From: Streptomyces sp. NBC_01267
GTDB lineage: Bacteria > Actinomycetota > Actinomycetes > Streptomycetales > Streptomycetaceae
Direction: 5' to 3'
Assembly: GCF_036241575.1 (NCBI RefSeq)
Contig: NZ_CP108455.1
Coordinates: 7,113,001 to 7,177,000 of the forward strand
Length of the DNA stretch: 64,000 nt
The notes under the pieces are model-generated. The model was not told where the DNA came from. It saw only the letters and a list, made by a program, of their open reading frames with translations, and made no database searches. The position numbers and the translations under genes were made by a program. Below are positions 7,181-12,989 of the stretch, one piece after another. Position 1 is the first letter of the stretch. Every line of letters begins with the position of its first letter.

Positions 7181-7281
7181 TCACCATCGCCACATAATTC
7201 GCAGTCGCCGGCCGGCGTCCGTGGACGCCGGCCGACGGAGACCCCAGCACAGCAGAGGAAGTACTGCACGAAGGGGAAGCC

Positions 7282-9273
7282 ATGACAGCGACGACCGACG
7301 GAAGCCCCGGAGCCATGGAGCCCCGCGCAGCCTCGGCCAGTGAAACAACCGAAACTATCCCCGTCGGCGATCCGGTACGTGACGCCGCCGAGCGGGCCGC
7401 AGCGAACTCCGTCGAGTACCTGCTCCGAGCCCAGGACGCCCAAGGCTGGTGGAAGGGCGATCTGGAAACCAACGTCACCATGGACGCCGAGGATCTGCTG
7501 CTGAGACAGTTCCTCGGAATCCAGGACGCGCGGACCACCGAGGCCGCGGGCCGGTTCATCCGGGGCGAGCAGCGCGAGGACGGCACCTGGGCCACCTTCT
7601 TCAAGGGCCCCGGTGAACTCTCCACCACCATCGAGGCGTACGTGGCCCTGCGGCTCGCCGGGGACGCACCCGACGCACCGCACATGGCACTCGCCTCCTC
7701 CTGGATCCGCGCCCACGGCGGGGTCGCCGCGAGCCGGGTGTTCACCAGGATCTGGCTCGCGCTCTTCGGCTGGTGGAAATGGGACGACCTCCCCGAGCTA
7801 CCACCTGAGATGATTTTCCTGCCGAAGTGGTTCCCGCTCAACATCTACGATTTCGGCTGCTGGGCCCGGCAGACGATCGTGCCGCTCACCGTCGTCTCGG
7901 CGAAACGCCCGGTACGCCCGGCCCCCTTCGCCCTGGACGAGCTGCACATCGACCCCGGCGACCCCAATCCGGCCAAACCGCTTGCATCCGTGTCCAGTTG
8001 GGACGGGGCGTTCCAGCGTCTCGACAAGGCGCTGCACGTCTACCACCGCATCGCACCGCGAAGATTCCGCAAGGCGGCGATGAACGCGGCGGCCCGCTGG
8101 ATCATCGAGCGGCAGGAGAACGACGGCTGCTGGGGCGGTATCCAGCCGCCCGCCGTGTACTCGGTGATCGCCCTGCACCTGCTGGGATACGACATCGACC
8201 ACCCCGTGATGCGGGCGGGCCTCGCGTCGCTGGACCGGTTCGCCATCTGGCGCGAGGACGGCGCCCGCATGATCGAGGCGTGCCAGTCCCCGGTCTGGGA
8301 CACCTGCCTGGCCACCATCGCGCTGGCGGACGCGGGGCTGAGCCCCGATCACCCGGCGCTCGTCAAGGCCGCCGAGTGGATGCTCGGCGAAGAGATCGAC
8401 CGGCCCGGCGACTGGTCCGTACGCCGTCCCGAACTGGCCCCCGGCGGCTGGGCGTTCGAGTTCCACAACGACAACTACCCCGACATCGACGACACCGCCG
8501 AGGTCGTCCTGGCCCTGCGTCGCGTTCAGGTGCCGGACCGGGGGCGCCTGGAAGGTGCCATCGCGCGGGGCGTGCGCTGGAATCTCGGTATGCAGTCCAA
8601 GGACGGCGCCTGGGGAGCCTTCGACGCCGACAACGACAGTCCGTTCCCGAACCGGCTGCCGTTCTGCGACTTCGGTGAGGTCATCGACCCGCCGTCGGCC
8701 GACGTCACCGGGCACGTCGTGGAGATGCTCGCCATCGAGGGGAAGGCCCACGACCCGCGCACCCGGCGCGGGATCGAGTGGCTCCTCGCCGAACAGGAGG
8801 CGACCGGGGCCTGGTTCGGGCGCTGGGGCGTCAACTACATCTACGGCACCGGGTCGGTGATCCCGGCACTCACCGCGGCCGGGCTGCCCACCTCCCATCC
8901 GGCCATCCGCCGTGCGGTCTCCTGGCTGGAGTCCGTACAGAACGAGGACGGCGGCTGGGGCGAGGACCTCCGCTCCTACAAGGAGGAGGAGTGGATCGGG
9001 CACGGCGCCTCGACCGCGTCGCAGACCGCCTGGGCACTGCTGGCGCTGCTCGCGGCGGGGGAGCGGGAGAACAAGGCCGTGGAGCGGGGCGTCAGCTGGC
9101 TCGCCGAGACACAGCGTCCGGACGGCGCCTGGGACGAGCCGTTCTTCACCGGCACCGGCTTCCCCTGGGACTTCTCGATCAACTACAACCTCTACCGGCA
9201 GGTCTTCCCGCTCACCGCACTGGGACGGTACGTCCACGGTGAGCCCTTCGCCGCGACCCGGCAGGGGAGCTGA
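7282..9273 (+). CDS. shc: Squalene-hopene cyclase (HpnF)
   Basis: 663 residues, normal for the family. The catalytic DXDD motif is DIDD at residues 401-404 (context NYPDIDDTAEVV). Several QW repeats are visible, for example QDAQGWW near 51, QEDGTW-like near 98, QENDGCWGG near 278, QSKDGAWG, QNEDGGWG and QRPDGAWD near the C-terminus. The protein is a monotopic membrane alpha-alpha-barrel that cyclises squalene to hopene/hopanol by protonation. It follows a 101-bp spacer, and its TGA overlaps the next ATG (TGATG). Confidence 0.97.
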   Translation: MTATTDGSPGAMEPRAASASETTETIPVGDPVRDAAERAAANSVEYLLRAQDAQGWWKGDLETNVTMDAEDLLLRQFLGIQDARTTEAAGRFIRGEQREDGTWATFFKGPGELSTTIEAYVALRLAGDAPDAPHMALASSWIRAHGGVAASRVFTRIWLALFGWWKWDDLPELPPEMIFLPKWFPLNIYDFGCWARQTIVPLTVVSAKRPVRPAPFALDELHIDPGDPNPAKPLASVSSWDGAFQRLDKALHVYHRIAPRRFRKAAMNAAARWIIERQENDGCWGGIQPPAVYSVIALHLLGYDIDHPVMRAGLASLDRFAIWREDGARMIEACQSPVWDTCLATIALADAGLSPDHPALVKAAEWMLGEEIDRPGDWSVRRPELAPGGWAFEFHNDNYPDIDDTAEVVLALRRVQVPDRGRLEGAIARGVRWNLGMQSKDGAWGAFDADNDSPFPNRLPFCDFGEVIDPPSADVTGHVVEMLAIEGKAHDPRTRRGIEWLLAEQEATGAWFGRWGVNYIYGTGSVIPALTAAGLPTSHPAIRRAVSWLESVQNEDGGWGEDLRSYKEEEWIGHGASTASQTAWALLALLAAGERENKAVERGVSWLAETQRPDGAWDEPFFTGTGFPWDFSINYNLYRQVFPLTALGRYVHGEPFAATRQGS

Positions 9274-9914
9274 TGGCGGAGGCCCCTGACAGTGCGCCGC
9301 TGCTGATCGCCTGTGCGCTCGGCATCGAGAAGTTCGCCCTGCGCACCGGCGGGCGCGGCGGCGCACCGGGTCCGGTGACCGTACTCCGTACGGGCATGGG
9401 GCCCGAGGCGGCGGCACACGCCGTCACCCGCACGCTCGGCGAGGCCCCCGCGCGGGACTCCGCCGTGATCGCCTCCGGCTTCTGCGCCGGTCTGCTGCCC
9501 GGGATGAACCCGGGCGACGTGATCGTCGCGGACGAGACCAGGCACGCCGCGGGGGTCACCCCCTGTGTGGGCACCGAACTCCTCGCCAAGGCGTTGGCCG
9601 CCACCCTGCCCGGCCGAACCGTGCACACCGGTCCGATGACCGGCTCAGACCATGTAGTACGCGGCCACGAAAGGGCCGAGCTGCGTGCCACAGGGGCGAT
9701 CGCCGTGGACATGGAATCCGCGGCGACGCTCTGGAGCGCCGTAAGGGCCGGGCCCCGCCCGGTTGCGGCCGTACGAGTGGTCGTGGACGCTCCAGAACAT
9801 GAACTCGTCCGAATCGGGACGGTACGCGGTGGAATATCGGCCTTCCGCGTTCTCCGTGCCGTCCTTCCAGCTTTCTATGAATGGCACCGTTCTTTGCTGC
9901 TCCCCAGGAGGTGA
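9273..9914 (+). CDS. hpnG: Hopanoid-associated nucleoside phosphorylase HpnG
   Basis: 213-residue member of the purine nucleoside/MTA phosphorylase superfamily. The motif VDMES at residues 145-149 is the conserved nucleoside-binding Met-Glu segment. HpnG removes adenine from adenosylhopane to give (phospho)ribosylhopane. Here it sits between the cyclase (1-bp overlap) and hpnH, its substrate producer, as in other hopanoid loci. The protein is short and soluble. Confidence 0.88.
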   Translation: MAEAPDSAPLLIACALGIEKFALRTGGRGGAPGPVTVLRTGMGPEAAAHAVTRTLGEAPARDSAVIASGFCAGLLPGMNPGDVIVADETRHAAGVTPCVGTELLAKALAATLPGRTVHTGPMTGSDHVVRGHERAELRATGAIAVDMESAATLWSAVRAGPRPVAAVRVVVDAPEHELVRIGTVRGGISAFRVLRAVLPAFYEWHRSLLLPRR

Positions 9915-9919
9915 GCTAG

Positions 9920-10942
9920 ATGGCCATGCCGCTCCGTCAGACCATCAGGGTCGGGACGTATCTCTTCGAACAGAAACTCCGCAAGCGCGAGAAGTTCCCA
10001 TTGATCGTCGAGCTGGAGCCTCTCTTCGCCTGCAACCTCGCGTGCGAGGGCTGCGGGAAGATCCAGCACCCGGCGGGAGTTCTCAAGCAGCGCATGCCGG
10101 TGGCACAGGCCGTGGGCGCGGTGCTCGAATCGGGCGCCCCGATGGTTTCCATCGCAGGTGGCGAGCCCCTGATGCACCCGCAGATCCATGAGATCGTGCG
10201 GCAGCTGGTGGCGAAGAAGAAGTACGTCTTCCTCTGCACCAACGCGATGCTGATGCGCAAGAAGATGGACAAGTTCACCCCCTCGCCCTATTTCGCGTTC
10301 ACGGTGCACATCGACGGGCTGCGCGAGCGGCACGACGAATCCGTGGCGAAGGAGGGGGTGTTCGACGAGGCCGTGGAGGCCATCAAGGAAGCCAAGAAGC
10401 GCGGATTCCGGGTCACCACCAACTCCACGTTCTTCAACACCGACACTCCGCAGAACATCATCGAGGTACTCAATTACCTCAATGACGATCTCGAAGTGGA
10501 CGAGATGATGATCTCGCCCGCCTACGCCTACGAGAAGGCACCGGACCAGGAACACTTCCTGGGTGTCGAGCAGACCCGGGAACTCTTCAAGAAGTCGTTC
10601 GCCGGCGGGAACAGGGGACGGTGGCGTCTCAACCACTCGCCGCTCTTCCTGGATTTCCTGGAAGGCAAGGTCGACTTCCCGTGCACCGCGTGGGCGATCC
10701 CCAACTACTCGCTCTTCGGCTGGCAGCGCCCCTGCTACCTGATGAACGACGGGTACGTCCCCACGTACAAGGAGCTCGTCGAGAAGACCGACTGGGACAA
10801 GTACGGACGCGGCAAGGACGACCGCTGCGCCAACTGCATGGCGCACTGCGGCTACGAGCCGACCGCCGTACTCGCCACGATGGGCTCGCTCAAGGAGACC
10901 ATCCGTGCCGCCCGCGAGACGGTCTCCGGAAACCGCGGGTGA
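9920..10942 (+). CDS. hpnH: Adenosylhopane synthase HpnH (radical SAM)
   Basis: 340-residue radical-SAM enzyme. The [4Fe-4S]-binding CxxxCxxC is CNLACEGC at residues 38-45, followed by the GGEP motif in VSIAGGEPLMHP. A C-terminal cysteine cluster (CANCMAHCGYEP) is typical of HpnH and its DUF3463 tail. It adds the adenosyl group from SAM to the hopene double bond, starting side-chain extension. AGGAGG lies just before the start, and the gene is 5 bp after hpnG. The ispG remnant begins 4 bp after its stop. Confidence 0.95.
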   Translation: MAMPLRQTIRVGTYLFEQKLRKREKFPLIVELEPLFACNLACEGCGKIQHPAGVLKQRMPVAQAVGAVLESGAPMVSIAGGEPLMHPQIHEIVRQLVAKKKYVFLCTNAMLMRKKMDKFTPSPYFAFTVHIDGLRERHDESVAKEGVFDEAVEAIKEAKKRGFRVTTNSTFFNTDTPQNIIEVLNYLNDDLEVDEMMISPAYAYEKAPDQEHFLGVEQTRELFKKSFAGGNRGRWRLNHSPLFLDFLEGKVDFPCTAWAIPNYSLFGWQRPCYLMNDGYVPTYKELVEKTDWDKYGRGKDDRCANCMAHCGYEPTAVLATMGSLKETIRAARETVSGNRG

Positions 10943-10955
10943 CGTGATGACCGGT

Positions 10956-10982
10956 GGGGAGCCGGTGACACCGGCTCTCCCC
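10956..10982 (+). terminator. Hairpin directly after hpnH
   Basis: GGGGAGCCGG, a 5-base loop TGACA, then CCGGCTC-T-CCCC: an 11-pair stem with one bulged T, starting 14 bp after the hpnH stop. It may reduce transcription into dxs-hpnO or stabilise the upstream mRNA. There is no T-run. Confidence 0.45.
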
Positions 10983-10988
10983 GCGCCG

Positions 10989-11043
10989 CCGGCCCGGCCT
11001 GTCGCGGTGCGCCGCCCCTCGCGGCGCATCCAGGCCGGGCCGG
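10989..11043 (+). repeat. Nested inverted repeat inside the ispG remnant
   Basis: The outer arms CCGGCCCGGCCTG (10989-11001) and CAGGCCGGGCCGG (11031-11043) are perfectly complementary over 13 bp. Inside them TGCGCCGC (11008-11015) pairs with GCGGCGCA (11021-11028) around a CCCTC loop. In RNA this would give a hairpin of about 21 bp with a small internal loop. Confidence 0.6.
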
Positions 11044-11108
11044 TGGCGGTCGCGCCGGGGTTCCCGACGCCGCTGTGAGCGACAAGAAATCCGAGAGGGG
11101 GCCCAAGC

Positions 11109-12989
11109 GTGTCGATCTTGGAAAATATCCGGGGGCCGCGCGACCTGAAGGCGCTGGAAGACACTGAACTCGGTGAACTGGCCGAGGAAATAAGGGAGTT
11201 CCTGATCCAGGCGGTGGCCAGGACCGGCGGACATCTGGGACCGAACCTGGGGGTCGTCGAACTCACCATCGCCCTGCACCGGGTGTTCGACTCGCCCGCC
11301 GACCGCATCCTGTGGGACACCGGCCACCAGAGCTACGTGCACAAGCTGCTCACCGGGCGGCAGGACTTCTCCAAACTGCGCAGCAAGGGGGGCCTCTCCG
11401 GCTACCCCGCCCGCGCGGAGTCGGAACACGACGTCATCGAGAACTCGCACGCCTCCACGGTCCTGGGCTGGGCCGACGGCCTCGCCAAGGCCAACGAGGT
11501 GCGGGGCAGGACCGGCCATGTGATCGCGGTGACCGGCGACGGAGCGCTCACCGGCGGGATGGCGTGGGAGGCGCTGAACAACATCGCGGCGGCCGGTGAC
11601 CGCCCGCTGATCATCGTCGTCAACGACAACGGACGGTCGTACGGGCCCACGATCGGCGGCCTGTCCCACCACTTCGCCACGCTCCGGACCACCGACGGCT
11701 ACGAGCGCTTCCTGGCCTGGGGCAAGGACGTGCTCCACCACACCCCCGTCGTGGGGCAGCCGCTCTACGAGTCGCTGCACGGCGCGAAGAAGGGGTTCAA
11801 GGACGCCTTCGCACCCCAGGGGATGTTCGAGGACCTGGGGCTCAAGTACGTCGGGCCGATCGACGGGCACGACCTGGAAGCCGTCCAGACGGCGCTGGTC
11901 CGCGCGAAACGCTTCCACGGTCCGGTGCTCGTGCACTGTCTGACCGAGAAGGGCCGCGGATACCGGCCCGCCCTGGAGGACGACGCGGACCGTTTCCACA
12001 CCGTCGGCGTCATGGACCCGCTGACCTGCGAGCCGCTCGCCGCGTCCAGCGGCCCGTCCTGGACCTCGGTGTTCGGCGCGGAGATCGCCGAGATCGGCGC
12101 CGAACGCCCCGACGTCGTGGCGGTCACCGCGGCGATGCTGCACCCGGTCGGGCTCACCGAATTCGCCGAACGGTTCCCCGACCGGGTCTGGGACGTGGGC
12201 ATCGCCGAACAGCATGCGACGGTCTCCGCCGCCGGACTCGCCACCGGCGGACTCCATCCGGTGGTCGCGGTGTACGCGACCTTCCTCAACCGGGCCTTCG
12301 ACCAGCTGCTGATGGACGTGGCGCTGCACAGGTGCGGGGTGACGTTCGTACTCGACCGGGCAGGTGTGACCGGGGTCGACGGGGCCTCGCACAACGGCAT
12401 GTGGGACATGTCCCTCCTCCAGGTCGTGCCCGGCCTCCGGATAGCCGCGCCCCGCGACGCCGACCAGCTCCGGGCCCAGCTGCGGGAAGCCGTCGACGTC
12501 GACGACGCGCCGACCGTGCTGCGCTTCCCCAAGGAATCCGTGGGCGAGCCGGTTCCGGCGATCGACCGGGTGGGCGGGATGGACGTACTGCACCGCGCCG
12601 ACCGCCCCCAGGTGCTTCTGGTGGCCGTCGGCGTACTCGCGCCGGTCTGCCTGCAGGCCGCCGAACTCCTGGAGGGCCGGGGGATCGGCTGTACGGTCGT
12701 CGACCCCCGCTGGGTCAAGCCGGTGGACGAGCAGCTGCCCCCGCTCGCCGCCGGGCACCGGCTGGTCGCGGTCGTCGAGGACAACAGCCGCAGCGGCGGT
12801 GTGGGTTCGGCCGTCGGGCAGGCGCTGCGCGACGCGGGCGTGGACGTACCGCTGCGGACCTTCGGAATCCCCGAGCAGTTCCTCCCGCACGCCAAGCGAG
12901 GCGAGGTACTGGCCGACATCGGGCTCACGCCCGTCGAGATCGCAGGACGGATCAGCGCCGCCCTGAAAGCCAAGGAGAAGACGGAATGA
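11109..12989 (+). CDS. dxs: 1-deoxy-D-xylulose-5-phosphate synthase Dxs (hopanoid-cluster copy)
   Basis: 626 residues, near full length for the family. The ThDP motif starts [16 protein letters not shown] (GDG at 143-145), and the transketolase-type pyrimidine domain has [15 protein letters not shown]. The enzyme condenses pyruvate and glyceraldehyde 3-phosphate to DXP, the entry step of the MEP isoprenoid pathway, so the operon boosts its own C5 precursor supply. GTG start with GAGAGGGGG upstream. The 3' end overlaps the aminotransferase as ATGA. Streptomyces usually also carries a housekeeping dxs. Confidence 0.95.

Follow-up and report, generated by a model that had tools for sequence, protein, structure and literature searches.

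A scar of a second ispG gene in a Streptomyces hopanoid operon is predicted to form tandem stem-loops and may be a structured element between hpnH and dxs

In S. clavuligerus, transcript ends that are structured yet U-poor are common and make up 353 of 535 highly structured ends (PMC8269248). In S. griseus, the accessible text of a second report (PMC8914203) places a structured end inside the hopanoid operon itself, at the hopD-hopE junction before the squalene-hopene cyclase gene, and expression differs on its two sides. Hairpins can also be created and perfected by template switching, as described in the accessible text of PMC8794818. Judged by titles and abstract openings, the literature searched on Streptomyces hopanoid genes and on pseudogenes reused as regulatory RNA contained nothing about the hopanoid-operon ispG remnant described here.

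We analysed a hopanoid operon of Streptomyces sp. NBC_01267 within a window of 64,000 nucleotides (the whole stretch of DNA under analysis). In this operon the gap between hpnH and dxs is 166 bases long and carries the remnant of an operon copy of ispG that is predicted to fold into two stem-loops. Like the U-poor ends and I-shaped terminators in the accessible text of the two reports (PMC8269248, PMC8914203), the scar has a strong GC-rich stem without a U tail, and its best 40-nt folding energy (−26.8 kcal/mol) lies beyond the −25 divide given for S. griseus ends (PMC8914203), where the length of the folded stretch may differ. The I-shaped terminators differ from the scar, which consists of two tandem stems derived from a gene. 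The S. griseus hopanoid-operon end was mapped, at hopD-hopE, whereas the stems described here are predicted, between hpnH and dxs (PMC8914203, accessible text). The scar shares with template-switch hairpins, as far as their description extends in the accessible text (PMC8794818), arms that become exact reverse complements and compensating changes between relatives; those hairpins were shown in RNA genes, the present ones lie in a protein gene that has died. The features of the locus are listed below.

9920..10942, + strand: hpnH, adenosyl-hopene transferase, the gene 5' of the scar (TIGR03470, 538 bits, curated cut-off passed)
10947..11078, + strand: 43-codon ATG..TGA frame, remnant of the operon ispG, probably giving no working peptide
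10947..11054, + strand: part that aligns with the 5' end of an intact operon copy, roughly codons 1-36 of ispG (global alignments to loci L010, L013, L030 and L122; 30-row alignment)
10956..10980, + strand: stem-loop 1, 11 pairs (one G-U), loop GAC (predicted fold)
10984..11048, + strand: stem-loop 2, outer stem of 18 pairs and inner stem of 10 pairs, over the codons of about PPARPVAVRRPSRRIQAGPVA (predicted fold)
11093..11101, + strand: probable dxs ribosome-binding site GAGAGGGGG (sequence reading; a similar stretch lies 5' of dxs in several relatives)
11109..12989, + strand: dxs, the operon's own 1-deoxyxylulose-5-phosphate synthase gene, intact (TIGR00204, 602 bits vs. a cut-off of 466)

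The other operon members, all on the + strand, are hpnE, a polyprenyl synthase gene, shc (7282-9273), and an aminotransferase gene; an hpnG-like gene at 9273-9914 scored under the model cut-off.

The initial annotation, made from the letters alone, had read the 43-codon frame as a decayed second ispG next to a retained private dxs, and both points were confirmed. The translation of 10947-11078 (MTGGEPVTPALPAPPARPVAVRRPSRRIQAGPVAVAPGFPTPL) was compared with the N-termini encoded by the intact ispG that fills this slot at 61 loci of other species, and reached a best BLOSUM62 local score of 126 (L030), while the best score among 300 shuffled peptides against the same N-termini was 59. The score against the genome's own full IspG was 53; the remnant therefore derives from the operon copy and not from the other ispG. 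At the nucleotide level the scar aligned to the intact gene of L010 over ∼110 nt with no gaps. The hpnH-dxs distance is 170 in the window vs. 1199 in L010, i.e., ∼1.0 kb of ispG is missing, and the remnant keeps ∼36 of ∼384 codons. Compared with the Streptomyces hopanoid-operon copy of IspG/GcpE (PF04551), the remnant is alike in operon place, start position and N-terminus (GEPV.LGLP..PARP..RR.SRRIQ.GPVAV.), but it is without the barrel and the cluster-binding part, and production of the enzyme is impossible. The C-terminal cysteines of IspG bind the [4Fe-4S] cluster; the frame stops at codon 43 and contains no cysteine. A genome search with PF04551 matched only one full ispG, outside the operon (C1:5887822-5888841, 404-codon open frame, 4e-143), and gave no match at the frame. 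The genome has two dxs copies, so dxs is duplicated and ispG is not.

That the frame is a chance small ORF with no relation to ispG has a negligible probability. An NCBIfam scan of the 43-codon peptide returned no family at E 0.001 and other mechanical frames overlap the locus, as a chance ORF would allow, but the alignment score is far above that of the shuffles, place and register match the intact genes, and the alignment to L010 is gapless; the intact orthologues in the slot already refute it. The same scar recurs in L003 (identical with the named locus L033, Streptomyces sp. A 4/2), an independent assembly from this species, which makes an assembly artefact unlikely. A repeat element was rejected as well: the only other genome match of the scar was its own palindrome on the opposite strand. 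On these alignments we identify 10947-11078 as the 5' scar of a second ispG once carried by the hopanoid operon.

We then compared the slot in relatives. The 191 hpnH loci gathered came from a genus search (30 loci, the most similar among the matches listed; 392 genomes searched, 375 with hpnH), named genomes (80), fetched regions (60), and handle searches (21). Removal of 12 duplicate rows left 179 distinct loci, the third region batch and the handle searches having been partly chosen by ispG/dxs copy number. Intact ispG (∼384 codons) lies between hpnH and dxs at 61 of the 179 loci. An ispG pseudogene (8) or fragment (4) with dxs present was found at 12 loci, and dxs with no ispG match at 41, the window among them with a remnant too short for the search. 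Only a dxs fragment remains at 4 loci and neither gene at 49; at the last 12 the contig ends inside ispG and no class was assigned. The subset not chosen by copy number (142 loci, L002-L151) gave 50 loci with intact ispG and dxs, 33 with dxs and no intact ispG, 3 with a dxs fragment, 44 with neither gene, and 12 unclassed. Intact, pseudogene, scar and absent stages were all found in relatives, and no unrelated gene was seen in the slot among the 179 loci. S. violaceoruber (L083), which we take to be a near relative of S. coelicolor, carries a second ispG in the slot, up to the contig end. For hpnH, the best tree requires 15 changes in the intact ispG state, and well-supported branches force 9 or more of these. 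The internal ispG deletions in L022, L055, L068, L091, L094, L162, and L171 come from draft assemblies and may partly be assembly faults because the two ispG copies are alike. The assemblies of L117, L128, and L137 have 1, 10, and 3 contigs, respectively.

Contig breaks fall inside the operon ispG in L012, L014, L015, L037, L039, L073, L077, L083, L104, L105, L108, and L143, as though the assembler had been halted by long stretches identical to a further copy, and gene conversion is possible. Two full ispG genes, both far from the hopanoid operon, were seen in 9 of 14 picked genomes (L206-L214), both sister species of the window's species included. The operon dxs is itself decaying in some relatives, with fragments in L035, L070, L149, and L186 and an internal stretch deleted in L007, which was scored dxs-positive all the same.

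The order of loss was examined next. Fifty-three of the 179 loci keep dxs without an intact ispG, and none of the 61 intact-ispG loci is without dxs. A targeted set of 9 genomes with at least two ispG matches and one dxs, 8 of which had hpnH, gave 8 more loci: L221 has an intact ispG and no dxs, L220 an ispG fragment and no dxs, L218 both genes, four have neither gene, and one is cut at a contig end. The order is not absolute: L221, the one exception found, contradicts an invariable loss of ispG ahead of dxs, and the usual loss of ispG first is only a tendency. Dxs limits flux through the pathway. The initial annotation had suggested relaxed selection on the [4Fe-4S] step. In its strict form this would confine the relaxation to IspG and require Dxs to be retained. 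The usual order of loss (53 loci vs. none) is what such a cause would give, but it appears unlikely with dxs absent from L221 (ispG intact) and L220 (ispG fragment), fragmentary at 4 loci and absent at 49; a relaxation specific to the IspG step was left unsupported by the 49 loci that have lost both genes. Since 49 of 179 loci (44 of the 142 unpicked) are without both, the private MEP genes are dispensable as a set.

The frame still has a start and a stop, and the initial annotation had allowed that it may be translated as a small peptide. We weighed two roles for such a product, as a functional small protein and as a leader peptide with coupling to hpnH. The start lies 4 nt past the hpnH stop codon, as in the intact ispG of L010, and the frame is open in both strains of the species. 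Against this, the start is ACG and the RRxSRRI stretch is deleted in both sister species (L004 and L005). In 13 scars the start codon is ATG in 7, ACG in 4, AGG in 1, and TTG in 1, the 13 being hand-picked from the 41 loci with dxs and no ispG match, so that four further scars in this set have an altered start. Codon changes between the two strains number 1 synonymous and 2 non-synonymous in the frame (5 and 1, respectively, in dxs), and the sequence of the frame differs among scars. Conservation of a peptide was rejected on these codon changes and the start-codon variation; from the sequences compared, a peptide role for the remnant is unlikely, and a working protein or leader seems very improbable. 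The two strains are distinguished by 4 sites out of 166 in the gap, 4 out of 1023 in hpnH, and 6 out of 1881 in dxs; the gap thus changes ∼7 times faster than hpnH and dxs together (4/166 vs. 10/2904 sites, p 0.005), a weak result with so few changes. The scar of L004 carries a 159-bp insertion with inverted ends (L004:1254-1412), whose form suggests a small mobile element of the non-autonomous kind; the L004 genome (G259) has some dozen relatives of this insertion at 72-75% identity, and the window's genome has several at 72-76%.

The folding of the scar was then estimated. For the 114 bases that follow the hpnH stop codon, the predicted folding energy is −95.3 kcal/mol (z −7.66); none of 200 shuffles was as low. 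Among 711 stretches of 112 bases (710 window tiles and the scar), the scar was lowest in both z (−8.5) and energy. An early hairpin search limited to the first 50 and 70 nt and to short loops missed stem-loop 2, which was revealed by folding the whole gap. Rfam 15 gave one match in 10800-11300, at 17.5 of 45 bits and under the gathering score, and no known RNA family. An ordinary U-tailed terminator was looked for at the scar and rejected, as none was found. The second most structured stretch of the window, at 2270-2370, has a long near-perfect stem followed by another and sits just 3' of a frame ending at 2262 that reads like an ABC-transporter ATPase, 5' of the hopanoid operon; by its predicted fold it is probably a terminator. 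A strong GC stem also lies at 7200-7240, in the gap 5' of shc, the junction of the mapped internal transcript end in S. griseus.

Both inverted repeats are present, in imperfect form, in the intact operon ispG. When ∼100 bases near the ispG start were compared with synonymous recodings, z was −2 or lower in 34 of 61 intact operon genes (16/30 and 18/31 in two types, of which one class (L), assigned by a text pattern, includes a few members of the other). The same level was reached by 3 of 61 internal ispG stretches and by none of 14 ispG copies outside the operon, a few of which may be extra copies and not the housekeeping gene. In the loci admitted by the core rule, the central pair of stem 1 (19-33) joins the third base of the usual Glu codon and the second base of a Gly codon. 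This pair is formed in none of 6 intact, 2 cut-off and 8 pseudogene loci, in 6 of 13 with ispG gone, and in 3 of 3 with both genes gone; the core rule admits stems that seem not to derive from ispG (L079, L024, and L082), without which the last two counts become 5/12 and 1/1. The Gly-to-Ala and Val-to-Ala differences of the window from L030 are stem-improving changes.

Stem strength was scored in the first 70 nt after hpnH. A stem score of at least 10 was found at 22 of 34 loci with dxs kept, no ispG match and a gap of at least 70, and at 14 of 22 both-gone loci with a gap of at least 110; among pseudogenes and fragments the count was 0 of 12 and among intact genes 2 of 61. Controls gave 0/17 (70 bases before dxs), 0/12 (dxs-aminotransferase gap), 1/41 (inside dxs), 1/61 (inside ispG), and 3/179 (inside hpnH). 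Over 112 nt, z was −3 or lower at 20 of the 25 loci that have lost ispG and whose gap is 112 or longer. Mean z was −4.6 for these 25 loci, −1.3 for 16 with shorter gaps, −2.9 for the 12 pseudogenes and fragments, and −2.4 and −2.2 for 41 and 32 intact or cut-off genes; the 14 outside-operon ispG copies gave −1.2, 63 internal ispG stretches −0.2, and, as a caution, a control stretch of hpnH from 500 to 388 bases before its stop codon gave −2.77, with 42 of 61 loci at −2 or lower. For the first 50 nt, mean z was −2.0 with ispG gone and −0.2 and −0.8 with ispG intact. Strong stems are commoner after ispG loss. A comparison of ispG loss with strong stems in phylogenetically independent pairs gave a median p of 1, with too little power at 9 pairs, of which 1.2 on average differ in the stem. 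The short-gap loci L133, L178-L180, and L188 keep dxs and have no strong stem. In L018 and L027, where both genes are gone, scar-like sequence (by eye) with strong stems lies between hpnH and the aminotransferase gene.

Covariation was estimated in an alignment of 30 rows (intact, cut-off, pseudogene and scar) hand-chosen for shared register; a second hand-chosen set had 38 rows. The structure pairs 85.4% of cells in the 30-row alignment vs. 36-49% when slid, an advantage expected in part as the structure was derived from the window's own fold. In shuffled alignments, which ignore relatedness, the mean was 84.3% of cells paired; none of 500 such shuffles reached the observed covariation score, paired cells or both-sides-changed cells, and 55 and 70 of the 500 reached the two other of the five measures. 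RNAalifold's own consensus had 28 pairs, only 3 of them with changes on both sides. A fixed-register count gave 6.0 of 11 pairs with ispG gone, 6.6 with ispG intact, and 8.1 in pseudogenes, but this count is weak because the stems shift register between species.

We propose, with a probability of roughly 0.6, that the ispG scar and its tandem stem-loops form a structured intra-operon element. Both repeats, still imperfect, already existed within the coding sequence near the start of the gene while it was intact, in part owing to its choice of codons. Deletion of ∼1.0 kb of the operon ispG, whose step is now presumably supplied by the sole full ispG elsewhere, left the pair of predicted stem-loops in the hpnH-dxs part of the message. 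With the coding constraint gone, the stems may then have been strengthened, for example by replacement of the mismatch that comes from the usual Glu and Gly codons. Most likely the hairpins would end, trim or protect part of the transcripts, in the manner of the structured U-poor ends known from transcripts of other Streptomyces, and hpnH and dxs would be expressed at different levels. The remnant may thus now be an RNA signal in the message rather than a small protein.

The competing explanation is a plain pseudogene scar with idle hairpins, in which inherited imperfect repeats were perfected by replication template switching and GC drift. Template switching is able to create or perfect hairpins (PMC8794818, accessible text), and in L084 the 3' arm repeats the 5' arm of stem 1 as its exact reverse complement, the outcome expected of one switch event. 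GC drift would likewise give the T to C changes by which stem 2 is perfected, the gap evolves faster than its flanks, sister L004 tolerates an insertion in its scar, and the tree-based test on 9 pairs was without significance. Idle repeats do not sit well with a structure favoured over synonymous recodings while the gene was intact, with strong stems, several of unlike sequence, at 22 of 34 loci, or with the scar sequence and stems of L018 and L027 (by eye) after both genes had gone. We regard an idle scar as possible but improbable on balance, and give the functional reading a modest lead over it. A broader version of the functional reading is that the 5' coding end of the operon ispG doubled as structured RNA whose function persists beyond the protein: many Streptomyces lineages would have deleted the gene yet retained, reinforced or rebuilt its hairpins as an element of control within the operon. 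This we offer tentatively, at somewhat below even odds; if true, the loci would be a fossil record of how a protein-coding gene becomes a regulatory RNA.

The hopanoid operons of living species hold an intact gene, a frameshifted pseudogene, a short scar and no trace as successive steps. The series allows testing how operons handle an untranslated gap after gene death, and also whether selection, or only a mutational preference, lies behind hairpins in dead genes. It is also a warning: where short remnants resembling small proteins are retained at all, RNA structure may be what is kept.
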